34,064 nt of DNA, from positions 1-34,064 of the forward strand of contig JACMLN010000050.1 in assembly GCA_014379585.1 (NCBI GenBank), read 5' to 3'. The translations under genes and the position numbers were made by a program. Shown here piece by piece: positions 6,711 through 32,473 of this stretch (its first letter is position 1; every line of letters begins with the position of its first letter). The notes below the pieces were generated by a model. It made no database searches. It worked only from the letters and a program-made list of their open reading frames with translations, and was not told the origin of the DNA. This stretch comes from Gloeobacterales cyanobacterium ES-bin-313. GTDB lineage: Bacteria; Cyanobacteriota; Cyanobacteriia; Gloeobacterales; Gloeobacteraceae.

Positions 6711-7097
6711 ATTCGTGATCGCAATGAGTGGCCGAGGCAAAACCCAATGCCCCTCCCATCGCTCACCCAGACCACTCCCAATCCGCCTCCCATTCCGCAT
6801 CACCACACGGGGAAATTCAAAATTCAAAATTAAGAATTCAAAATTTTGAATTCAATGGTTTTCGCCATGAGCCTGGGACGCGCAGCGTCATACCTACCGT
6901 GCCACCAGTCCACAGACTGTGGTGGTTGCGCACCCACCCGCAACGTGAGACGAAATCTGCGCAACCCAAAAGCACCAAGTATCAAGCCACTAAAGTTGCC
7001 AAGGGGGTGTGGGGGACAGGCTTCTGTCCCCCACGGGGCGGGGGTTTTAGGGGGCGGGGCTTGCCCCTGCCCCCTAATGCAGTTCGCCATATTTATC
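6711..7097. repeat. Intergenic repeat, copy A (full form)
   Basis: A noncoding element of about 387 bp is repeated at 13897-14186 (copy B) and 33747-34064 (copy C). In order it has: a block from ATTCGTGATCGCAATGAGTGG shared with copy C only; an A/T-rich tract built from AAATTC units around GAATTC; a nearly invariant core from CAATGGTTTTCGCC; and two GC-rich hairpins. The core contains a perfect CCACAG-A-CTGTGG palindrome. It fills most of the 523-bp gap between two convergent genes. Positions 7098-7210 hold only a short TAGAGTTGG direct duplication. Apparent open frames inside the element are products of the repeat, not genes. Confidence 0.9.
7009..7077. terminator. Tandem GC-rich hairpins at the end of repeat copy A
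   Basis: GTGGGGGACAG (7009-7019) pairs perfectly with CTGTCCCCCAC (7024-7034) around a 4-nt loop. A second hairpin, TTAGGGGGCGGGGC with GCCCCTGCCCCCTAA, spans 7047-7077 with a 2-nt loop and one unpaired base. Lying between convergent genes, they could stop transcription from both sides, but neither carries a strong U-tract. The terminator role is inferred. Confidence 0.5.
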
Positions 7098-7210
7098 TCA
7101 CTTGCCAAAAAGGAACGCGGCATTGTTAACCCCCCGACAGACCTTGTGAATAAATCGCTCAGTTTGTAGAGTTGGACGGTATTAGTAGAGTTGGCTGGAA
7201 TCCAATGTAG

Positions 7211-7777
7211 TTAGAAAGCAACATCTTCATAAAGCACTTCTAGTCTGCTCGAAAAGTTGAGACTACTCAGTTGAAATGTTCCTGGATCTTCTGTGTAGGA
7301 CTCCAAAACCCAAAGCCCTTCTTCGTTGCGACGGAAACATTGAACCAGTTGCCGTTTTGAACTGATCAAGACGTATTCTTGAAGGCTCTCGATGGTCTGA
7401 TAGTCCTGAAACTTATCCCCTCGATCAAACGCTTCAGTGGAATCCGAGAGAATTTCGATGATGAGTCTGGGGAAGCGCAGAGAAATGGGGGTTTCTTGGT
7501 CGCGCTGATCACAACTCACCACCACATCCGGGTAGTAATAGCAATTGCGCTGCTCAATACGGACTTTCATATCCGAGACAAACACCCGGCAGCCAGAACC
7601 GCGAATATGACTACGCAGAACCGTCAAAAGATTGCCTGCAATCGTATTGTGCGCTTGGCTTGCGCCCACCATAGCGTAGAGCCGCCCATTCACATACTCA
7701 TGCTTGATCGGACTTTTTTCTTCGATCTGAAGGTACTCATCGGGCGAGAAATAGGGATCTTGGGGCGTAGCAATCAT
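7211..7777 (-). CDS. Uma2-family (DUF820) nuclease-fold protein
   Basis: The open frame extends to 8020, but that part overlaps the metallophosphoesterase gene. ATG at 7777 gives the 188-residue length usual for Uma2 proteins and starts just before the conserved ...FSPDEYLQIEEKSPIKHEYVNG... segment. The PD-(D/E)XK pattern is visible: YYPDVVV supplies the Asp, LIIEILSDST the Glu, and DRGDKFQDYQ the Lys and Tyr typical of the family. Uma2 genes are strongly expanded in cyanobacteria; their substrate and role are not established. It lies 82 bp downstream of the phosphoesterase on the same strand and its 3' end abuts repeat copy A. Confidence 0.85.
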   Translation of the reverse strand: MIATPQDPYFSPDEYLQIEEKSPIKHEYVNGRLYAMVGASQAHNTIAGNLLTVLRSHIRGSGCRVFVSDMKVRIEQRNCYYYPDVVVSCDQRDQETPISLRFPRLIIEILSDSTEAFDRGDKFQDYQTIESLQEYVLISSKRQLVQCFRRNEEGLWVLESYTEDPGTFQLSSLNFSSRLEVLYEDVAF

Positions 7778-7859: not shown

Positions 7860-9017
7860 TCATTTCCCATCCCGCACAAACGGTCTACGAGAATCGAGGT
7901 CAAGCAGTTGGTAGGTACTGGCTCGCACACTGCCCATATTGGCATCGGCAAAAATGAGGCTACCTTGGTGCGCATCCGTTTTTTCGATGACACCGGGAGC
8001 GTATTGAACTTTTTGACCATCGGTGCGCAAGAAACGGAGTCCCCCTTCAGGCGTTTTTTTGCTGTCCGCCCAGGAACCGAGCAGCTTTCGGCACTTGAGG
8101 TCGCGGGTATGACCGATGACTTGGGTGATGCCTTTGGGCAACGTGCGTGGATCGAATCGCCGTACTAGGGACTCCCTTGGTTTCGTTGGCCCGCCAACAA
8201 ACTCAGGGCGGTGATAGAAAATCCCTCTTCCTTCCTGGTGATGACCACTGCCAGGCAGATGTAAACCTTCGATGTGCAGTGGTTCTAGACCATTCCAATT
8301 TTGGACAGCCACATCGAGGCGTTCATTCATTGCCTCCGCGACTTGCTCTGCATCGGCTTGGGAGCGAATCCCTGCAGTCTCGAGATCTGCCTCTGTAAAG
8401 CCAGCGTGACAGAGCAGAAAATTGACATCGACTGCCGTTGCGGCTCGGAATCGGCCAGCAAGGAGGAGACTGCGCACCAAGTCGCGCTGGCGCTCGTTGA
8501 AGCAGGCGAAATCTCGGGCAGCAATTTCCACGGAGGGCAAGCTTGGATGGTTGTCGAGAAAGGCTCTTTCTTGTCGAAAATTCCAGGGGCGCGCCGTGTA
8601 GATGCGGGTTGCCTCTTCTTGCACCTGCTCAAAGTTGCCATCTTTGAAGCGCACCATTTCGCCCACCCTAGCGAGGTCATGGTTGCCCAACAGCAAAGTG
8701 ACTTGATCCGCAGGATGGGCAGCGAGCCAAGCGAGCAGTTCGAGTCCTTCGCGGGTGGCTTGCTTGCGCTGGGCATGGGTGCCCCAATCGAAGTGATCCC
8801 CTAAGGAAATAAGCTGGACATCCTCTGCCAAGCGGCCATCTTCGCCCAGCAAGTGATTTACCTCTAGGATGCTCAAAAATTGAAGCAGAGGTGCTTGGGG
8901 ATCGCCGATGGCAACGCGCCTGCGCAGCTTTTGCCCACGGAGTGACCGTTCGATCGTCGGTTTTTCTCCATCTTGTTGGGCGAGGTGCTGGGCTTTAAGT
9001 ACGCGCTGGTTGATCAT
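7860..9017 (-). CDS. Calcineurin-like metallophosphoesterase
   Basis: 385 residues with the dinuclear-metal phosphoesterase motifs in order: GDPQAP (38-43, variant of GDxH), GDHFDWG (73-79, variant of GDxxDRG), GNHD (111-114), LCHAGF, and GHTRD near the C-terminus. His in motif I is replaced by Pro-Gln, as in some bacterial subfamilies. It should hydrolyse a phosphoester, but sequence does not say whether the substrate is protein, nucleotide or small molecule. No signal peptide is evident, so it is probably cytosolic. It is followed on the same strand by the Uma2 gene and preceded by the small WD40 remnant. Confidence 0.8.
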   Translation of the reverse strand: MINQRVLKAQHLAQQDGEKPTIERSLRGQKLRRRVAIGDPQAPLLQFLSILEVNHLLGEDGRLAEDVQLISLGDHFDWGTHAQRKQATREGLELLAWLAAHPADQVTLLLGNHDLARVGEMVRFKDGNFEQVQEEATRIYTARPWNFRQERAFLDNHPSLPSVEIAARDFACFNERQRDLVRSLLLAGRFRAATAVDVNFLLCHAGFTEADLETAGIRSQADAEQVAEAMNERLDVAVQNWNGLEPLHIEGLHLPGSGHHQEGRGIFYHRPEFVGGPTKPRESLVRRFDPRTLPKGITQVIGHTRDLKCRKLLGSWADSKKTPEGGLRFLRTDGQKVQYAPGVIEKTDAHQGSLIFADANMGSVRASTYQLLDLDSRRPFVRDGK

Positions 9018-9623: not shown

Positions 9624-9797
9624 GGTAACCAAGGTTCGGCATTGAAGTTTCTCAACAGTTTTTGGTCGTACCTTGCCCTTTCTTCGCGCTTATGCCTGTC
9701 CACCGCTTTTTAAAGCCATTGATGAGTATTTTCTACTAGTCCTGGGTTAAGGCTGGCTGCTAAGATAAAGAAGTGTAAACTTTTAGGGTTTCTGAAC

Positions 9798-10610
9798 GTG
9801 CGGTTTAGCGCTTATTCCGGTTTGACGATCTCGCTTGTGTGCCTTGTAGCTGGCGCAGCCCAAGCCCAGTCCGTGGATGAAGTCGCTGTGAAAGCGACCC
9901 TGACCCATCTCGATGAAACAGCCTCCCGCTGCGATGTGGATGGGATGCTCACCCGCTACAGCCCAAATTTTAAAAGCAAAGATGGTCTAAATGTTGAGGC
10001 GACTCGCAAAGCTTTCACCAGCCTGTGTGCCAAGATCGACAAGCCCATGTACCGCAGCGAAGTCCGTTCCGTCAAAAAGCTTCCCAAGGGTGTGCTGCAA
10101 GTGGTGACGACGACGAATATGACTGCCACTTACCGCACCGAATTGCCCAAGCCCGCCCAACTGGTCAGCACTGTGGAGAGTTTGAACAGGTTTGAATCGG
10201 TGAAGGGTGTACTCAAGTTGGTGGGCCAAGAGATCTTGGCGGAAAATACGACGATCTCCATCGGCGAAAAACCACCACGGGTCAATCTCAACTTGCCGAC
10301 GATGGTCAAACCCGGACGGGATTTTAAGATCGAGGCCATTTTGCCGACGCCCCTCCAGGACAGTCCTGCCCTCGGCGGCATCAGCCTCACCCCAATCAAT
10401 GCAAAGACGAGTACGACCTTGCAAATGCCGACCCTCGAAGCACTGCGTTCGGGAGGGATTTTCAAGACAGGCCAAGCGCCGAGTCGCCAAGAGGATCAGT
10501 CCTTAACCCTCGCATTTGTGCAAGATGGCGGCATGATTTTGGTCAGTCAACGTCTGCGGGTCACTAGTGCTGAACCGCCTGTAAATTCTTCACCCTCTAA
10601 ATCGGAGTAG
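9798..10610 (+). CDS. Exported NTF2-like hypothetical protein
   Basis: A GTG start at 9798 gives 270 residues; no better ATG is nearby. An N-terminal signal peptide with an AQAQ-S cleavage region indicates export. The first mature segment (about 28-140: VKATLTHLDETASRCDVDGMLTRYSPNF...) has the helix-helix-sheet pattern of NTF2/SnoaL-like domains. The rest is a beta-rich region ending in a Ser/Pro tail. The function is unknown. The stop is 4 nt before the ndhD start codon, so the two genes are very probably co-transcribed. An exported protein next to an NDH-1 membrane subunit is odd and may only reflect shared transcription. Confidence 0.65.
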   Translation: MRFSAYSGLTISLVCLVAGAAQAQSVDEVAVKATLTHLDETASRCDVDGMLTRYSPNFKSKDGLNVEATRKAFTSLCAKIDKPMYRSEVRSVKKLPKGVLQVVTTTNMTATYRTELPKPAQLVSTVESLNRFESVKGVLKLVGQEILAENTTISIGEKPPRVNLNLPTMVKPGRDFKIEAILPTPLQDSPALGGISLTPINAKTSTTLQMPTLEALRSGGIFKTGQAPSRQEDQSLTLAFVQDGGMILVSQRLRVTSAEPPVNSSPSKSE

Positions 10611-14198: not shown

Positions 14199-16481
14199 TC
14201 ACTCGTCCGACAATCTTCTCGACAGTGCCCGCGCATCTTCCAGACTGGCGTGGCGCAGACGTTCAAACGTGGCAAGTGCTTGTCCAGCCAGTTCTTGAGC
14301 CTCAGTTTTCCTGCCGAGTCCAGACAAAACGCGCGCCATGCGGAATTGGCCTTCCGCGACCAAATCTCGACGATGGATCTTCAGAGCCAAGTTCTGACCT
14401 TCCTGCAACCAGCGCTGGGCCAGAGGCAGATCTGACTGGTGAAAAGCAACCAGCCCCAGGTTGAGCGCACAGATCGCCCGTTGTTCTTCTAGGGCATGTG
14501 CCAGCGCATAAGCCTGTTTAAAGCACTCGTTCGCCCGCTCAAAGTCTTTGAGGTCGCAGCGAACCCGGCCAAGGTCGTTGAGGGTCGTGACGATCTGACG
14601 AACAGTGCCATGGGTACGACAGAAGTAGAGCACCGCCTGCAAGCGCGCTTCAGCCAAATCCAGGTCGCCCCGTGCCCGTGCTTGCAGACCTTCCCAGCGC
14701 TGCCGATAAATATCGACATCTTCTTGCAGTCCGCACTGACCCGCCGCATAGAGCAGACGTTGCATCCAGTGTTCTGCCTCTTCGGGTTCGTTGCGGGCGT
14801 AAGGCCCATACACCCACACCAGGCATTGGGCGCTCCACACCGCCCCCATCCAATGCTCACTAGCAGTGGAGACATCGAAACCCTGCCGCGCGATCTGCAC
14901 CAGTTCCGTCCAGTAGCCCCGAAACCACAAAAAGCGGCGCAGCGAACGGATAAATTCGATCAAAAGCAGTGACGAACGCTTATGAATCGCCGTGTAGCCA
15001 GCACTGCTCGCTTCTTGAAGCCAGACCATGCAGCTTTGCAAGTTCGGCCACTCTGCTTCCAATTGGTCGTAACTGGCGAAATCGGCGGGGTGGTCGCCAC
15101 CGTAGGTGCGGGCGAACTCCGCCCATGCCTGGGCAAAGCGCAGGCCACTTTCGTCGTCGATGCGGCTGCCTGCCAGGGTACTTGTCAGTGGCAGGAGGTG
15201 AAAGTGTGCGTGTTCGGGATCGCTCTCGGCAAGGGACAACTGCACCAGTTGTTCGCAGGCACCCTGCACAAGTTCGATCGGCAAACCGCTCGCAGCAGCG
15301 AGCATCGGCAGTGTAGCGGGGGCACGAAAGAGCGCGAGGGTCGAGAATACCTGCCGCCCCTGAGCGGATAGCTGTTCTAAGGATTCAGCAAAGACAAACC
15401 CGTGCAGATCGCTGGTCATAGCCGCTTGAGCAAGCATTTCCAGAACCCGTTCGTAACTGTAGCTCTTCTGGGTAATCAGCCGCATTGTCCACCGCAGCGC
15501 CAAGGGGGATCCCCCCGCTGCTGTGTAGAGTTTCTGAATACCGCTCTCGCCCAGTTGGGTAACCACGTCTAAAACATCCGCATCTTTCGCCGCGAGGCAG
15601 GCGAACAGTTCGTAGGCAGTCTGCCAGGGCAGCGGATCGAGGCGCACAGTCACAGCACTCTCCCCCGATCGGCGGCGACTCGTGACGATTGCCTTGCAAT
15701 CGCGGGGCAGACGACGCAGGAATTCACCGACCTCCTGGCGCTCCTCAGCCGTGAGCGTCTCCAGATTGTCGAGCACCAGCAGCGAACGCGTCCCCACGAG
15801 GGCGCGCTCCAGATGTTGGCATTTTTCTTGCGTCGTTCCGAGGCGGCGGATTTCCACCCCCCGCAGCTGCGCGAGTTCATCGAGCAGTGCATCGAGGGTC
15901 GTTGGTGCCAGGATGTCCTGCTGCACGCCACGGGCAGTCAGATAGGTCGTCTTGGCGCTCACCCAGAGGTAGGCACCAAAAAATCCCTCTTTTCGACAAA
16001 GATGGGCGACCGCGAGGGCCAAGGCACTCTTGCCCAGACCACCCTGGCCGTCGATTACCACACCCCATCCCCGTTCCTGGGGACTCAGTCCTTCGAGACA
16101 CCGCGCGATCTCCGCCTCCCGCCCAACAAAAAGGTCGATGGCAGGTAGGTTATCGATAGCCGGTGTTTGGGGCGCTGTGCCTACTGAAGCTGGTACCAGT
16201 TCCGCCAGCACATCTTCCAAACGATCACAGCGATCTAGTTGCCGATCCACGTCGTCGAGGAGTTCTCGTAGTTCCGGAGTGGCTGGGTAGGCAATCGCCA
16301 TCTCCTCCAAATCCTGGAAAAGGACACGCGCCTTGCGTACTTGGCGATTCAGTTTTTTGCCCTGGAGCAAAAACAGCGGACGGCGCTGCTTTTCTACTTC
16401 ATCGAGAGCGTCGTCGAGTCCGTCAAGCAGCGCTCTTGCTCGCTTGTATTCCCGTGTCAGGCTGCCGAAAGCTTCTTGCAT
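14199..16481 (-). CDS. STAND-type NTPase (NB-ARC-like) with C-terminal TPR repeats
   Basis: 760 residues. The N-terminal 100 residues are a charged helical bundle with no recognisable enzymatic effector. The NTPase core has VGRE (119-122), Walker A GQGGLGKS (145-152), Walker B SLLVLDNLE (233-241), a sensor-like TSRR (268-271) and GGSPLALR (323-330, the GLPL-type motif). A winged-helix-like region follows, then TPR helices from about 590 to the end (for example LNDLGRVRCDLKDFERANECFKQAYALAHAL). STAND proteins act as signal-triggered oligomerising switches in regulation, conflict or cell death. It lies 36 bp downstream of a small coiled-coil gene in the same direction, probably as one operon. 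The 3' end abuts repeat copy B. What it senses is unknown. Confidence 0.82.
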   Translation of the reverse strand: MQEAFGSLTREYKRARALLDGLDDALDEVEKQRRPLFLLQGKKLNRQVRKARVLFQDLEEMAIAYPATPELRELLDDVDRQLDRCDRLEDVLAELVPASVGTAPQTPAIDNLPAIDLFVGREAEIARCLEGLSPQERGWGVVIDGQGGLGKSALALAVAHLCRKEGFFGAYLWVSAKTTYLTARGVQQDILAPTTLDALLDELAQLRGVEIRRLGTTQEKCQHLERALVGTRSLLVLDNLETLTAEERQEVGEFLRRLPRDCKAIVTSRRRSGESAVTVRLDPLPWQTAYELFACLAAKDADVLDVVTQLGESGIQKLYTAAGGSPLALRWTMRLITQKSYSYERVLEMLAQAAMTSDLHGFVFAESLEQLSAQGRQVFSTLALFRAPATLPMLAAASGLPIELVQGACEQLVQLSLAESDPEHAHFHLLPLTSTLAGSRIDDESGLRFAQAWAEFARTYGGDHPADFASYDQLEAEWPNLQSCMVWLQEASSAGYTAIHKRSSLLLIEFIRSLRRFLWFRGYWTELVQIARQGFDVSTASEHWMGAVWSAQCLVWVYGPYARNEPEEAEHWMQRLLYAAGQCGLQEDVDIYRQRWEGLQARARGDLDLAEARLQAVLYFCRTHGTVRQIVTTLNDLGRVRCDLKDFERANECFKQAYALAHALEEQRAICALNLGLVAFHQSDLPLAQRWLQEGQNLALKIHRRDLVAEGQFRMARVLSGLGRKTEAQELAGQALATFERLRHASLEDARALSRRLSDE

Positions 16482-21764: not shown

Positions 21765-23165
21765 TCAACCGTGCAAACTACGCAAGTGTCTTACTTTTTG
21801 ACGCAAGGGCAAGCCTCGTTCAGGATCGACCATATAGACAAAATTAGCGAATCCTTGCATGGCGGCAAAGAGGTTCGGCGCTCCTTCCCAATGTTTACCA
21901 GAAGGACCATCCCGCTCGATCTGAAAGAGCAGCGCACGAAAACGGCGCAGGGTTTTGCGGCAGACAGAGAGCTTATTATTGACGACAATGCCAGTCACTT
22001 CCTGCTGAGATCCACCGCGCAAGATCCGGGTTTTCGCTTCGTTGATCACAAACCCTTCGTGGGTGACGATGGACTCAATGCGGCGCAGCAGAGTGCAAAT
22101 GTGGCGTAGGTTCTCCCCGGAAGCAGAGAACGTCAGGTCGTCGGCGTAGCGCGTGTATTGAGAGCCCAGAGCTGTGGCCATCGCTGTCAGTCGGCGGTCA
22201 AAGCGGCGACAGAGCAAGTTGGTAATCGCGGGACTCGTCGGCGCGCCTTGGGGCAAGTGGCGGGTGCCTTGAGAAACATAGTAGGTGGTCTGGTCGAGAC
22301 TGAGCGCGGCTACCTCCGGCTCCGTACAGAGTAGACCAAAGATCGTCGCTGCTGCTTCGGAGTAGCCCAGGGCACGGAAAAGCCCTTTGACCCGCTTATA
22401 CGTAATCGTTGGAAAAAAGTTTTTGAGGTCGAGATTGACGACCACATCTGCACCGACGTGGGGACGGGCATTGGTGACGATGGAATGTCCCGTGCGAAAC
22501 CCATGGGCGGCTTCGTGAAGGGGAATATTGGTGAGCAGATTCGCCAAGAGCCAGTGCTGGATGTGTTTGAGTCGGGGCAGCGGTGCTGAAATCAGCCGTT
22601 CACCCCCCGACTTCTTAGGAATCGTGAAGCGAATATAATGAGAAACTTTTGAAGTACGCCGCGAAAAAGCGAGAAAACGTAATTGCCCAACACTGATTCC
22701 CATGGCAGACGCGATCTGCTCGGCACTGCCTAGGGCAGGCAATCCATAGCTCGCCAGCCGTTCATGGTCGCATTCAGTGGCACTCAGCCCCCCAGAGACG
22801 CCCTCGCCCAAGTAGAGAATTTCGTGCTGCTTGCGTTGCTCCCACACCTGAGCACGGGCAATGCGTTCTTGCTCCCGCCGCTCTTTGTTTTGTTGTTGTT
22901 TTTGACGAGATTCCTGGAGGCGAAGCTTCCGGGCAGCCTTGCGCAAGTGTTCTTCATTGTTGAGCTTCCGGCTTTCGGAGCGCAAAGCTTCAAGTTCTCG
23001 CTGTAACTCCCCTTGACGACGGATCTCTTCGGCGGGATCTTCGGGAAGGGTGCCCTGACGCGGCCAAAAACCAAGGCGGATCATCTCTTCAAGAATGAAT
23101 TCGTCCTTTGAGGTTTGACGAATCCGGTCGTAGAGTTCTTGGCGGGTGCGGGGCTGCTCGGTCAT
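21765..23165 (-). CDS. Retron-type reverse transcriptase with charged N-terminal extension
   Basis: 466 residues. The N-terminal 120 residues start with ELYDRIRQTSKDEFILEEMI...GFWP and continue as a very charged (E/R/K/Q) helix. The RT domain follows: RFTIPKKSGGERLISAP (179-195), HGFRTGHSIVTNA (221-233), catalytic NLDLKNFFPT (244-253), LPQGAPTSPAITN (304-316) and YADD (340-343). GFVINEAKTR (371-380) and VTGIVVN (390-396) complete it. QGAPTSP, the NAxxH-like region replaced by GHSIVTNA, and a VTG motif after YADD are marks of retron RTs rather than group II intron or DGR RTs; no maturase or endonuclease domain follows. It would copy the msd part of the adjacent ncRNA into msDNA. The ncRNA ends 18 nt before its start codon. 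Confidence 0.92.
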   Translation of the reverse strand: MTEQPRTRQELYDRIRQTSKDEFILEEMIRLGFWPRQGTLPEDPAEEIRRQGELQRELEALRSESRKLNNEEHLRKAARKLRLQESRQKQQQNKERREQERIARAQVWEQRKQHEILYLGEGVSGGLSATECDHERLASYGLPALGSAEQIASAMGISVGQLRFLAFSRRTSKVSHYIRFTIPKKSGGERLISAPLPRLKHIQHWLLANLLTNIPLHEAAHGFRTGHSIVTNARPHVGADVVVNLDLKNFFPTITYKRVKGLFRALGYSEAAATIFGLLCTEPEVAALSLDQTTYYVSQGTRHLPQGAPTSPAITNLLCRRFDRRLTAMATALGSQYTRYADDLTFSASGENLRHICTLLRRIESIVTHEGFVINEAKTRILRGGSQQEVTGIVVNNKLSVCRKTLRRFRALLFQIERDGPSGKHWEGAPNLFAAMQGFANFVYMVDPERGLPLRQKVRHLRSLHG

Positions 23166-23183
23166 GATCTGAAAAAAATAAAA

Positions 23184-23419
23184 TGTACAGCTTCGAAAGA
23201 GTGTTCCTTCGTAAACAACTCAGGACTGGGTTGCTCAACTCAAGCGGACTGCGGGTAGTAGTGCTCATTCGCAAGGCGCTTGCCCCACCGGAATAGCACT
23301 ACTACCCGCTTAGGCCGCAACGTCAAGAGCGAACCAGTGATGCATGGCTTGGACTCAGCGCAAGGATGGCGATCCACCATCCGGGTTGCAAGGTCATGGC
23401 ACCCTTTCGTTGCTGTACA
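23184..23419 (-). ncRNA. Candidate retron msr-msd RNA
   Basis: The 434-bp gap before the RT gene has the full layout of a retron ncRNA, read 5' to 3' on minus. a1 (23419-23400) is TGTACAGCAACGAAAGGGTG. a2 (23203-23184) is its near reverse complement: 8 bp, a 2-nt mismatch, 6 bp, one G-U, then 3 bp. After a1 come an msr hairpin with a perfect GGATGG/CCATCC stem (23364-23382) and a shorter CTTG/CAAG one. Then follows the msd hairpin at 23251-23309. The total of 236 nt is in the known range. The branching guanosine could not be fixed with confidence. This is all seen in sequence; production of msDNA is inferred. Confidence 0.82.
23251..23309 (-). repeat. msd long hairpin (inverted repeat)
   Basis: GCGGGTAGTAGTGCT (23251-23265) and AGCACTACTACCCGC (23295-23309) form a perfect 15-bp stem. 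Inside are ATTC/GAAT (4 bp, after one unpaired base), a 7-nt one-sided bulge, and a GCAAG/CTTGC stem with a 3-nt loop. Outside, GCGG and CCGC (23244-23247 with 23315-23318) can extend it. This is the part expected to become the single-stranded DNA hairpin. Confidence 0.85.
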
Positions 23420-23426
23420 TCAGTTG

Positions 23427-23432
23427 ATAATA
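23427..23432 (-). promoter_or_regulatory. Candidate -10 box of the retron RNA
   Basis: TATTAT on the minus strand lies 7 nt before the first base of a1, so a transcript starting at normal distance begins at the a1 TGTACAGC. No clear -35 box was found. An ATATGG/CCATAT inverted repeat (23485-23504) lies farther upstream and could end the glycosidase transcript or bind a regulator. Confidence 0.45.
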
Positions 23433-27638: not shown

Positions 27639-30600
27639 TTAGATGCGGTGGGCAGGGGCGATAGGCTGGATCGGTAAAGATATGTCTGGATAGATCTGTC
27701 GAATGGCAATCATTGCTTCAATCGCTGCAGCTTTGTTGCCGATGGCAATCGTCAGGGATTGGCGGGTGAGAATCGCTGCAACGCAATGGGCGGCTGCTTC
27801 AGATTTGAGCGCTTCACGGTGCAAGAAAGCAAAGATGCGGGCTTTGGCGATCCGGCCACGATTGACCCCCGAAAGTATCCGCAGGAAGTAAGGAGTTAAT
27901 TCGCGCAGACGCTCCGGACTGTCTTGGGCGTAGTCTTCTAAGTACCCGGTGGCAAAGAGTTGGAGGTCTGCACTGGGGTGCTCGCTGAGTTGTGAAAGAT
28001 ACTGCTGACCCTGTTCGACTTTGAAGTAGCGCAGAATCAGTTCACGGCCAAATGAACGTACTTTTTCGTTGACACTGTCGCAGATATTGACCAGGAGGGC
28101 TGGAGTGAAATCTATTTCGATCAGGTGCGTCAGGAAAACCTGTTCGCCAAATTGCCGGGTATCTTCCCACTTGCCATCTAAGTAGCGGGCGGCAACGGTC
28201 AGTTCTTCGGGATGCAGACGACGTTCTGGCAAGACCTGCAAAAACATCGACCAGGAGGCTTCTCGCACTGCCAAGATTTCATGGTTGGCCAACTGCACCA
28301 GTTCAGCCGTGTTGAAATCGGCGGCCCAGTTTTCGCTATGACGCTGGAGTACGAGTCCCCCCAATTCTTGGGCAGCAGTGGCTTTCGCGCGAAGTAGGTT
28401 CATAGCCAGGTCGCAGGAAGCTGTCACCATCCACCCCGGAATATCTTCGCGGAGGATCAACGTCAGATCGCGGTGAACGCCTTCGTGGACTTCTCGGCGC
28501 AACAACAAAGGGATCAATTCAGCAGCTAAGTGGCTGGCAAAGGCTGGATTATTTGCCCCCAAGCGGCGAATGACTGGACGAATTGCACTGCGCAGATCCC
28601 TAAGTTCATGGCTGGCGAGGACAACTAAAAGTTCTTGTTCTTCAAGGAGCTGGGATTCTGGCAACTGACCAAACAGCCGAATCCCAACAGCGCGCACCGA
28701 TGGGTAGGGCGAATTGATCAACGCAGCAATCAGACCCACAGGCAGATCTGTGACTGGAGTCGCATGGTTGAGCAAGATCCGTGCGCCGAGGGTCTGGACT
28801 TCCGCCAGAGGATGACGCAACAAGTCGAGCACCACCTCTAAGTTGATATTGCGCAGTTGTTGCGCAAAGAGGGTGGCGAGGATTTCGACAAGTCCCGCCG
28901 TACCTGGGGTGGCTTCTGTAAGGGCAATCAAGCCAGCCAAAAGCCGACCAACGAGCGCCAGAGATTGGGACTCACTCAGATTCGCAGTGGTGAGGAGGCG
29001 TTGAGCAAATGCTTGTGTGTCCAGATGGCGGCTGGTAATGAGGGCAGCCAGAAAAGCAGTGTCGCCGAGAAAAGCTTGCTGGTTTTCCGTAATCCAGCGC
29101 TGGGCTACGGCACGGGCATCGGGCATGATGCAATTGGCTACGGCAAGCACCAAAGGCAAATCGGGCTGATTGGCATCATATTTTGCTTGAGCCAGTTCAA
29201 AACCAAATTGGGTTGTGATTGCATAATCAGTACCCAAAAGCACGACGATTTGAGGGATTTCTAGACCTGCACAGAAGTCAGTACAGTCCTGCAATACTTT
29301 GATCGCAAAGTGGTGAACAAGCAGGCAGTGACTATGCTCTAGTAAAACCAATAAATGCTCCGGATATTGCTCCCAAAGCTTTGGGAAGGCTTCTTCCCGA
29401 ACTATCGGTTCTAGGCCACCCGGCTTGAAACCAGCCTTGCAACGCCATGCTTTGGTGTTGTGCTTCAACTCGTAGCGAGGACTGTTGGTGTAGAGAATAT
29501 GGTTGAAAATTAAATAGGGAGCGAAACGATCCCAATGGATTGTCCGCAAAGTGATCGTTCGTCTTTGCCGATAGTCATAGCGGCTGTACTTTGCCTCGCG
29601 GGGTTCTTGGGCATCGTCATCGCTGTAAGTGAGTAAGATTCCAGTCGCTAAAGTCAGATATTCAGAGCTTTCGAGTTGGCCGAGTCGTCGCAGGGTGCGC
29701 CATACGCGTTTGCGCAGATAGTCCCGCGTCTTGGTACTGTAGGCGAACTGCGTATTGCGCTCTTGAAGATATTTTTTGAATTCTGGAACACGTAGATAGT
29801 TATAGTCACCTTCTCCTTGAAGATAGATGAAGCTGTATTGTCCTTTGGGGCTACGATAATTTGCTTTTTCTTGCTCAAATCGTCTAGCGAGCAGGCTAAA
29901 GACTTCCCCATCGTGGCGATATTCGGCCATTTTGAAGATATGGCGGATCGGTTGGAAAGTGCCGAAGGCGAAAGGCAATGTCTTTAAGATTTTTAGCAGG
30001 GTCGGACGAATCTGAGGATTGTCGATGTAGTAGAGGCGAATAAGTACCGAAAAGCGATCTACTGATTCGCTCTCTAGATAAATTTTCAACGCTGAATCGA
30101 AGATTTCCGGTGGGTCGTGACGGGTGGACTCTCGCAGATTGGGAGGGAGCAGGTCGATGGCCTGATCTATGAGCTGTGCCCGCAAAGCGTCGGAAGCCAA
30201 TGCACGCATTGCTTCAAAGCCGATCCGTCTAACCGCTTCTGTCGTCGGCCCCGAACAAAGATTGTTGAGGGGAACAATGGCGTTTTTATCCCCGCAATGC
30301 CCCAAAGCCCAGGCAATGCAGTAATCCCGCAGGGAATTGCTACTCCCGATCAATTTGATCAACAGGGGGGTCGCTTCACGCAAACCCAACTCCCCCGCTC
30401 GCCAGATCACCCGCTCCAAGGGCCAGGTTTTAATCAGGGGTTGAGAACCCAAAACATTTTGGACAAAGCTGAACAGTTGCCCGACGACATTACTGGTTTC
30501 GTCGAGGCGTTGGAGGATTCTAGCCCGCCGCAACTCTGGATTCGCGCCGCGCCGAGGCGGTTTTGATGTAGCAGTCCGCTCTGGAGCGGCAGTCGAGGAT

Positions 30601-30833
30601 TCTCGATAGCCCTTCTTTACTTTGGAGGCGACCAATTTGTCGAAAGCTCTTTGGGCTTCACTTTGAGACAAGGCTTGGGGTGTTTCCACCCCTTCTTTGA
30701 GGTTCCCCCCGCGTTTGCCGTAGCGATAGTTGACCACGAAGCGCCCATCGCTCACTTCGCAAAGATCAACCTCGTAGACTTTGTCCGAGGTGCCTTCTTG
30801 GTAATACAAAGACGTGCGCTGGATCAGTTTCAT
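27639..30833 (-). CDS. WGR-domain protein with HEAT/ARM-type repeats
   Basis: 1064 residues from ATG 30833, in a 4-bp ATGA overlap with the stop of the WGR-propeller gene. Residues 1-75 form a WGR domain (LYYQEGTSDKVYEVDL...FVVNYRYGKRGG), with the W-G-R core present as Y-G-K. The rest is a long alpha solenoid of about 40-residue two-helix repeats, for example TPLLIKLIGSSNSLRDYCIAWALGHCGD, HPLAEVQTLGARILLNHA and SPYPSVRAVGIRLFGQL. This matches HEAT/ARM repeats. WGR domains in PARP-type and MolR-type proteins bind nucleic acids; solenoids are protein scaffolds. It resembles MolR/YehI-like proteins, but no MoxR or VWA gene is nearby. It is the central gene of the three-gene operon and may be the scaffold of the proposed retron system. 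Confidence 0.82.
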   Translation of the reverse strand: MKLIQRTSLYYQEGTSDKVYEVDLCEVSDGRFVVNYRYGKRGGNLKEGVETPQALSQSEAQRAFDKLVASKVKKGYRESSTAAPERTATSKPPRRGANPELRRARILQRLDETSNVVGQLFSFVQNVLGSQPLIKTWPLERVIWRAGELGLREATPLLIKLIGSSNSLRDYCIAWALGHCGDKNAIVPLNNLCSGPTTEAVRRIGFEAMRALASDALRAQLIDQAIDLLPPNLRESTRHDPPEIFDSALKIYLESESVDRFSVLIRLYYIDNPQIRPTLLKILKTLPFAFGTFQPIRHIFKMAEYRHDGEVFSLLARRFEQEKANYRSPKGQYSFIYLQGEGDYNYLRVPEFKKYLQERNTQFAYSTKTRDYLRKRVWRTLRRLGQLESSEYLTLATGILLTYSDDDAQEPREAKYSRYDYRQRRTITLRTIHWDRFAPYLIFNHILYTNSPRYELKHNTKAWRCKAGFKPGGLEPIVREEAFPKLWEQYPEHLLVLLEHSHCLLVHHFAIKVLQDCTDFCAGLEIPQIVVLLGTDYAITTQFGFELAQAKYDANQPDLPLVLAVANCIMPDARAVAQRWITENQQAFLGDTAFLAALITSRHLDTQAFAQRLLTTANLSESQSLALVGRLLAGLIALTEATPGTAGLVEILATLFAQQLRNINLEVVLDLLRHPLAEVQTLGARILLNHATPVTDLPVGLIAALINSPYPSVRAVGIRLFGQLPESQLLEEQELLVVLASHELRDLRSAIRPVIRRLGANNPAFASHLAAELIPLLLRREVHEGVHRDLTLILREDIPGWMVTASCDLAMNLLRAKATAAQELGGLVLQRHSENWAADFNTAELVQLANHEILAVREASWSMFLQVLPERRLHPEELTVAARYLDGKWEDTRQFGEQVFLTHLIEIDFTPALLVNICDSVNEKVRSFGRELILRYFKVEQGQQYLSQLSEHPSADLQLFATGYLEDYAQDSPERLRELTPYFLRILSGVNRGRIAKARIFAFLHREALKSEAAAHCVAAILTRQSLTIAIGNKAAAIEAMIAIRQIYPDISLPIQPIAPAHRI

Positions 30834-32266
30834 ACCAATTTCCGAATCTCGCCGTAGGTGCGGTAAAAATTGCCCCGTGCGGCTGGGCGTAACGCTTCCA
30901 CCACATAGCGTGCCCCAAGTTCGCGAAGATCTCTTGGAAATTGGACGCGCCACGTAGAATCGTAGCCAGGCGAAAGAGCCCGAATCCGCAGTTGGCTACC
31001 TTCGGCAAAACATTCCACCAGAACCCCAGCCCCAGCATCCGTGGTGGTTTCGACAAAATTGACGGCCACGGGTGCAGCAATCGGTTTTGGCGCTTTGATA
31101 TCGACCACGGTGGGTACGGTTCCTGCCTGGGCGGACTGAATCGCCGCTTCACTGGCATCGACGCAGGCGAGAGAACCATTGGTGGTGACCAAGTACAGCC
31201 GATCCTCGAAAAACTGCATCGAGTAAACAGAGCCGCACCCTGTAGCCAATTTCCAAAGCCGCTCCCCTGCTTGATTGAAACAGTAAATGCTGTCGTCGTT
31301 GTCCCCAGCAAAAACGTACTTGCCATCTTCGGCAGCGGCACAGGAGAACACGGCATTGTCGCACTGATAGACCGCTTCTTGTTTGCCCTGCTTGGTAAAA
31401 CAGTAGACTTTTCGAGAGGCCGTACCCGCAAAAACAAGAGATTCTTCCTGCCAACCGAACAGCACAGCGCCGTCCGTAGGCTGTTGCCAGATCACCCGAC
31501 CGTCCTCCCAATCGTACATCGTCACCCCACGACTATGGCCGTGATAGACTCCGATCTCGTCGCAGCGCACCATCCAGCCACTATTGCCCGTACTGCGCTT
31601 GCTCCATTGGGATTCGTCTTCGTGGTTGATGATCGTCACCTGGCCATCTTGATCGGAGACACCGAGAATACCGTCAGCGATATCTAGCCAGAAAATATCG
31701 ATATTGTTAGCAATTTCGTAGGCGACGCGGGGGACTTTGCCGCCGAGGTCGTAGACTTTGCCATCGTCGCAACCAGCATAGATCCAAGCATCGTCAGCCA
31801 CCAAGCATTTCACCCCATCGGGCAATTGAAACTGGTTTCTCACCTGGCCACTGTGGTCGAGGGCAAACACCCGCCCCGTCTGGTTTCCGACCCAGCAGGT
31901 CTGTTGATCTACAAAGATGCCAAAGGCGGCACTACCTGAAGCAAACTTCCAGAGCACCGGAGCCTGCATGGCCTGCACCCGCGAACGGCTGACGGGAATA
32001 CTGGCCATGGCTCTGCGGGTGACTGCCCGTTTTTGGCGCACCCCAACCACCGCTTGTTCGTAGCCCTTGCGCAGTTTTTCGTTAATCTTTTTGGTGGCAT
32101 CCGCCTGTGCTTTTTCGGCAGTCGGAAACTCTGCGGTTTTGCTCTGGCCGTTGTCGCCGATGCGCCCGTAGCGCACTGTCACCTGGGTGCCATTGACGAC
32201 GACCTCGTAAAACTTGTGGGAACCCTCCGCTTCGGAGAGTTCTAGGTAGGTTTTTGCTTCGCTCAT
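30830..32266 (-). CDS. WGR-domain protein with beta-propeller
   Basis: 478 residues from ATG 32266, with AGGTG just upstream (a GTG two codons earlier is possible). Residues 1-70 are a WGR domain (SHKFYEVVVNGTQVTVRYGRIGDNG). After a basic linker (VGVRQKRAVTRRAMA) comes a PQQ/WD-like beta-propeller of repeated blades: TCWVGNQTGRVFALD, WIYAGCDDGKVYDLG, GILGVSDQDGQVTIIN, LVFAGTASRKVYCFT, YVFAGDNDDSIYCFN and RLYLVTTNGSLACVD. No signal peptide is present, so it acts in the cytoplasm. It is the first gene of the operon and is translationally coupled to WGR-HEAT. Two different WGR proteins in one operon suggest joint recognition of one nucleic acid, possibly the msDNA or its target. Confidence 0.82.
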   Translation of the reverse strand: MSEAKTYLELSEAEGSHKFYEVVVNGTQVTVRYGRIGDNGQSKTAEFPTAEKAQADATKKINEKLRKGYEQAVVGVRQKRAVTRRAMASIPVSRSRVQAMQAPVLWKFASGSAAFGIFVDQQTCWVGNQTGRVFALDHSGQVRNQFQLPDGVKCLVADDAWIYAGCDDGKVYDLGGKVPRVAYEIANNIDIFWLDIADGILGVSDQDGQVTIINHEDESQWSKRSTGNSGWMVRCDEIGVYHGHSRGVTMYDWEDGRVIWQQPTDGAVLFGWQEESLVFAGTASRKVYCFTKQGKQEAVYQCDNAVFSCAAAEDGKYVFAGDNDDSIYCFNQAGERLWKLATGCGSVYSMQFFEDRLYLVTTNGSLACVDASEAAIQSAQAGTVPTVVDIKAPKPIAAPVAVNFVETTTDAGAGVLVECFAEGSQLRIRALSPGYDSTWRVQFPRDLRELGARYVVEALRPAARGNFYRTYGEIRKLV

Positions 32267-32473
32267 GATCACCTAATAGATGAGGGGGACTTGATATGAA
32301 CGTTTGTCCAGTTTACAGCAATCTGGTTTGTTTTACTAGGGAGCTTTTCTTTGTAAATCACACATCGCTTGCAGCAGCACGGAGCTCTCTGCTCGCCTCC
32401 TTCACCGCTCCAACAAGGAAGATTCCAGTGATCGTTTTCAGGGGTGCGACTGTGGCTGTGTTTGTAGCAGGGT

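Follow-up and report, generated by a model that had tools for sequence, protein, structure and literature searches.

The locus and its genes

The window analysed here is a 34,064-nucleotide stretch of the genome of Gloeobacterales cyanobacterium ES-bin-313 (contig JACMLN010000050.1), and its minus strand carries a reverse transcriptase (RT) gene, a folded non-coding RNA (ncRNA) directly upstream of it, and partner genes 2.5-9 kb further upstream of this ncRNA-RT pair (Table 1). Retron RTs are defined by a YxDD core, a region X with the motif NAxxH and a region Y with the motif VTG (PMC6868368), and the NARPH, YADD and VTG motifs of the encoded protein are invariant in an alignment of its relatives, which came from 32 loci and 386 genomes of the phylum. 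The protein matches Pfam RVT_1 and, across residues 2-463, the PADLOC model RT_XIII (628.8 bits, versus 332.8 bits for the runner-up model). Its AF2 model (mean pLDDT 86) has the RT of retron Ec86 (Eco1) as closest solved fold (7v9x, E 7.5e-25), and Ec86 also ranks first among solved RTs in sequence comparison (E 2.3e-43). The likeness to Ec86 extends to an msr hairpin with an 8-bp stem and a 3-nt loop, which is the RT-binding element in Ec86 (PMC6868368), whereas the partner proteins and the msr-msd sequence differ, and the N-terminal extension of the RT has no counterpart in the aligned part of Ec86.

Table 1. Features of the locus, in window coordinates, and ncRNA pairs of three Calothrix loci
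Feature	Position	Strand	Basis or remark
NB-ARC/AAA ATPase with TPR repeats (STAND-like)	14199-16481	-	5 kb beyond the RT gene
Retron RT, 466 aa	21765-23165	-	~135-aa helical N-terminal extension; NARPH (region X), YADD, VTG (region Y)
msr-msd ncRNA, a1 to a2	23182-23421	-	Fold, covariance model, covariation
a2 arm	23182-23203	-	Fold and arm-pairing test
Outer stem, 3' arm	23223-23243	-	Covariation
msd hairpin, 59 nt, perfect 15-bp stem	23251-23309	-	Fold; stem sequence varies among relatives, pairing kept
Outer stem, 5' arm	23321-23340	-	Covariation
msr hairpin, 8-bp stem and 3-nt loop	23364-23382	-	Fold, covariation
Candidate branching (priming) G in CUUGCA	23389	-	Invariant across aligned ncRNAs
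a1 arm	23400-23421	-	Fold and arm-pairing test
TATTAT, possible -10 box, RNA start near a1	23427-23432	-	Sequence
Secreted glycoside-hydrolase-like protein, 679 aa	23600-25639	-	Between SWIM gene and ncRNA
SWIM_XIII partner, 545 aa	25988-27625	-	Homologue-supported ATG; C-terminal SWIM zinc finger; predicted sliding-clamp-like region
WGR_XIII partner, N-terminal WGR then HEAT repeats	27639-30833	-	Pfam WGR, HEAT_2
Second WGR protein with PQQ/WD beta-propeller	30830-32272	-	Pfam WGR, PQQ_2; stop codon adjoins WGR_XIII start
Calothrix L005, two ncRNAs	7998-8183 and 9724-9911
Calothrix L008, two ncRNAs	7038-7223 and 9664-9850
Calothrix L021, two ncRNAs	8711-8896 and 9694-9880

The partner genes identify the class of this system. 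The frames of the SWIM and WGR_XIII genes were defined by homologue-supported starts, and their products match the PADLOC models for type XIII partners (WGR_XIII, 1168.5 bits; SWIM_XIII, 791.5 bits; HEAT-ARM_XIII, 122.8 bits), with the Pfam SWIM match just below cut-off (19.3 versus 19.6 bits). RT_XIII, SWIM_XIII and WGR_XIII thus score very highly on a single strand within 9.1 kb, and with this partner set the locus belongs to an already known retron type. A preliminary description, made without database searches, had announced a new retron with a readable msr-msd RNA directly upstream of an RT; the retron itself is borne out by the RT motifs, the RT_XIII match and a folded, covarying ncRNA, but judged by its sequence only the individual locus is new, the class being already catalogued in PADLOC as type XIII, and the partner genes had been overlooked. 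The genome that carries the locus clusters with cyanobacteria. Type XIII is a known, little-studied class, and a 2020 classification by Mestre and colleagues reportedly includes it.

Like other members of the class (PADLOC-DB RT_XIII, SWIM_XIII, WGR_XIII, HEAT-ARM_XIII), the locus combines an RT with an N-terminal extension, a SWIM protein and a WGR/HEAT protein in the same gene order. It differs from them by an extra WGR/beta-propeller gene, shared among the sampled loci only with the Spirosoma type XIII locus L020 (53% identical homologue), so that its product is regarded as an optional fourth partner, and by the glycoside-hydrolase-like gene that lies between SWIM and the ncRNA. The hydrolase nature of the latter product was judged from sequence alone (a signal peptide and an Asn-Glu in a TIM-barrel-like context), and no match was found in Pfam, NCBIfam or PADLOC. 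This gene was rejected as a retron component, being absent from all other examined type XIII loci; a 47% identical paralogue of it occurs in another part of this genome, 29 relatives have none, and it is therefore probably a passenger. Since this unrelated 2-kb gene splits SWIM from the ncRNA and RT, joint transcription of the locus is uncertain. On the other side of the RT, the STAND-like gene is possibly another defence or signalling gene.

An AlphaFold model of the SWIM protein has a mean pLDDT of 59 and low-confidence values across much of residues 131-247, and its best structural matches are all PCNA or sliding clamps (Foldseek E 1.6e-6; VIA Z 12.3, 176 residues, rmsd 4.5 A). Because of the low model confidence, the apparent likeness to a PCNA-like clamp is treated as a lead only.

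Fold and conservation of the ncRNA

Retron ncRNAs have an msr with one to three hairpins of about 7-10 bp, plus a long msd hairpin (PMC6868368), and both elements were found here by folding and covariation. The predicted fold of the whole RNA has a free energy of -112.8 kcal/mol, compared with a mean of -78.2 kcal/mol for shuffled sequences (z -6.8), and none of 200 dinucleotide shuffles was as good; Rfam searches at gathering thresholds gave no match across the window. The ends of the RNA are complementary, as in retrons, and form a 20-bp a1/a2 stem with G-U pairs and one 2x2 AA/AA internal loop. The msr hairpin is probably the RT-recognition element, by analogy with known retrons, where an msr hairpin with an 8-9-bp stem and a 3-nt loop is what the RT recognises (PMC6868368). 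The candidate branching G is the first nucleotide 3' of a short CCUU/AAGG helix that may form between 23390-23393 and 23206-23209; it was chosen by the retron rule that synthesis starts at the guanosine following the a1 stem (PMC6868368), and it is invariant in 25 of 25 aligned ncRNAs, in a context (UUGC) absent from the contexts listed in that source.

Most elements of this RNA had been recognised in the preliminary description, some with limits that have since shifted. The a1/a2 pair is present, but its arms, placed earlier at 23400-23419 and 23184-23203, now have the boundaries given in Table 1, and an msr hairpin is present, as had been proposed. The 59-nt msd hairpin also stands, with its perfect stem, but the DNA-copied region is likely to be larger than this hairpin because the conserved outer stem (23223-23340) is probably included. 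The TATTAT box, which had been taken to start the RNA at a1, is present as a -10 box, but a consensus scan gave no full promoter site at its position; in betaproteobacterial copies, those of Duganella and relatives, TATACT occupies a comparable position.

Homologous RNAs were found beside SWIM or RT genes in cyanobacteria, Bacteroidota, Beta- and Gammaproteobacteria and one planctomycete, and covariation was analysed in an alignment of 25 ncRNA copies from several phyla. In this alignment 92.3% of the cells in the proposed helices are paired, compared with 34-43% after sliding by 1-3 columns, and compensatory change is seen in 27 of 36 pairs. The best conserved helix is the msr hairpin (99.5% of cells paired, compensatory change in 5 of 8 pairs), and the outer stem (helix 2) is 94% paired, with compensatory change in 7 of 13 pairs. 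The covariation score exceeded that of all 500 shuffles; the slide and shuffle controls do not fully remove relatedness among the copies, and the a1/a2 arms served as a second test. Cognate a1/a2 duplexes have a mean energy of -28.5 kcal/mol, versus -15.1 kcal/mol for non-cognate ones, and none of 100,000 permutations did as well; the swapped pairs that outdid cognate ones come mostly from near-identical sister copies, the weak cases being L044 and L045. Covariation of the a1/a2 and msd stems had been named beforehand as the test of this RNA, and it was found; the mismatched yet base-paired a1/a2, G-U included, had been taken there as a sign of conserved RNA structure. A covariance model (R1) built from such copies, that of the window among them, scores 170 bits on the core at 23206-23393.

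Distribution and gene order

Full-length RT_XIII-like RTs and SWIM proteins occur in exactly the same 15 of 386 genomes, with a strong ncRNA match in 13 of the 15. In Bacteroidota and in Beta- and Gammaproteobacteria the locus runs from WGR through SWIM and the ncRNA to the RT in the space of a few kb, and in the planctomycete WGR, ncRNA and RT are present. The adjacent ncRNA and RT of the window represent the compact form, as does a second locus of Calothrix PCC 7716 (L117), with SWIM, ncRNA and RT close together. A search for mobile carriage gave one plasmid match (Methylobacterium bullatum, 53%, an unannotated record) and one weak phage match, hence no sign of a phage vehicle.

Several variations on the RT were seen. 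Type XIII RTs of Duganella and its kin (L013, L015-L019) have a C-terminal extension of ~150 aa with hydrophobic, membrane-like segments. Five cyanobacterial loci (L003, L056, L057, L064 and L065) have, immediately before the RT and in the same orientation, what looks by sequence like a ribonuclease III gene. Three further genomes (G042, G048 and G203; L113-L115) encode RTs that lack both the N-terminal extension and a SWIM partner, with weak ncRNA-model matches nearby, and these perhaps represent a related retron class.

Separated RT and ncRNA genes in cyanobacteria

An unexpected result of this comparison is that the RT and the ncRNA lie far apart in many relatives; a review names a single msr-msd-RT transcript as the norm for retrons (PMC8867640). 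In a first group of cyanobacterial loci (L004, L005, L007-L010, L021, L056, L057 and L060) the ncRNA follows SWIM, and unrelated genes separate it from the RT, which is 1-2.6 kb away. In eight cyanobacterial genomes (G308, G129, G360, G008, G213, G320, G172 and Argonema, L002/G386) the ncRNA is beside SWIM and the sole type XIII RT is encoded elsewhere, at distances from 28 kb up to over 600 kb or on another contig, in contrast to their adjacency in the window. The separation is 639 kb on one 4.2-Mb contig in G308 (C1 1103485 versus 1743057), at least 650 kb by contig geometry in G129, at least 90 kb in G172, 28.5 kb with the genes on opposite strands in G360, and at least 30 kb in each of G008, G213 and G320; in Argonema the two are on different contigs. 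The ncRNA follows SWIM by roughly 40-80 nt in most of these genomes, by about 0.9 kb in G172 and by 2.3 kb in G320. The components are otherwise those of the window: homologous RTs (60-68% identical) that are uninterrupted with all motifs present, SWIM, and ncRNAs scoring 166-178 bits (138 in G172). A scan of the whole genomes found one ncRNA in seven of the eight. G172 has two, which share the contig with SWIM and lie about 1.1 kb apart, and the second of them (L093/G172:C163 98279-98510) is a weaker match, at 88.9 bits. The separate and gapped arrangements form no single clade in either tree. It is possible that the split genomes contain trans-acting retrons; our literature search, outside which the original type XIII description lay, found nothing on far-apart RT and ncRNA or on trans-acting retrons.

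Some cyanobacteria contain more than one ncRNA per RT, Calothrix sp. NIES-4105 with its two among them. At three Calothrix loci (L005, L008 and L021) one ncRNA follows SWIM and a second one precedes the RT (Table 1), and L007, L009 and L010 have an apparent truncated second copy; no second ncRNA adjoining SWIM was found in the window by profile, covariance model or whole-genome search. Among the three second copies compared, the msd stem has a mean identity of 53% (minimum 32%) and the remainder of the RNA 98%, and every one of them still folds into a long hairpin. Reports of two ncRNAs per RT, or of replaced or hypervariable msd stems, were not found in the literature searched, which did not extend to the original type XIII description.

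Together these arrangements raise the possibility, which we put forward tentatively and with some doubt, that cyanobacterial type XIII retrons are dispersed systems in which one RT would serve one or two ncRNAs in trans. These ncRNAs would mostly be joined to the SWIM gene and not to the RT, which would in some cases lie hundreds of kilobases from them. The msd stem would be an exchangeable, fast-evolving bait, its sequence being swapped and the remainder of the RNA held constant, and SWIM may be a PCNA-like clamp.

A model for the locus and its alternatives

In the general model of retron function, a complex of RT and msDNA restrains toxic partners until phage infection. By analogy, we infer msDNA synthesis, the length and branch point of the msDNA, and a role in defence. 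The ncRNA would be transcribed and a1 would pair with a2; the RT would bind the msr hairpin, and copying of the msd would be primed by a conserved guanosine (candidate 23389) through its 2'-OH group. DNA synthesis would begin close to 23210 and extend across the outer stem as far as about 23340. This would yield branched single-stranded DNA, roughly 120-140 nt long, which includes the 59-nt msd hairpin and exceeds it in size. The RT-msDNA complex would keep the SWIM and WGR/HEAT partners in check until phage infection disturbs it, and disturbance would lead to abortive infection. A type XIII retron, expected to work by such msDNA synthesis and partner restraint, is, with high confidence, the best explanation of the locus, with sequence-based support for the RT class, for the RNA fold and its covariation, and for linkage and co-occurrence with SWIM and WGR. 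Our literature search, which did not cover the original type XIII description, found no paper on type XIII retrons with SWIM/WGR partners.

The alternative that survives best, although we consider it unlikely, is that the RT has a non-abortive role, such as production of a housekeeping or regulatory RT-DNA, with SWIM and WGR serving as partners that bind nucleic acids and not as toxins. Neither SWIM nor WGR showed a recognisable enzymatic toxin domain, SWIM resembles a PCNA-like clamp in its low-confidence model, and the RT and SWIM distances correlate tightly among cyanobacteria (r 0.95, Mantel p 0.0001), as shared vertical descent would also yield; however, the patchy distribution (15 of 386 genomes) and the fast-changing msd stems are more like a defence system than a housekeeping one. 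It is quite improbable that the locus is a decayed retron, in which RT and ncRNA persist in a system broken by insertion of the glycoside-hydrolase-like gene. That gene does interrupt the conserved SWIM-ncRNA-RT order, and RT and SWIM are absent from the five other family genomes searched, so the locus may have arrived recently and be unstable; yet every reading frame is open and full length, the a1/a2 and msd pairing is intact, and relatives with larger separations retain intact RTs and ncRNAs. That the ncRNA folds by chance, or is some unrelated structured element, and that the RT is an orphan, is favoured by the missing Rfam match and nothing else, and can be given almost no credence, since it is refuted by covariation of the same RNA in 25 copies against two controls, and RT and ncRNA co-occur genome-wide.

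Implications

As a type XIII retron, by analogy with known systems, the locus probably protects its host against viruses. The analysis provides a covariation-supported consensus for the type XIII retron RNA and a model that finds this RNA in whole genomes, so that the msDNA of a poorly studied class and phylum becomes directly testable. If the msd stem is truly replaced between close relatives, the stem of the msDNA would be the part under arms-race pressure. The split loci suggest that retrons need not be compact, and searches confined to the surroundings of an RT would, in many cyanobacteria, miss the ncRNA and the partners and label the RT an orphan.
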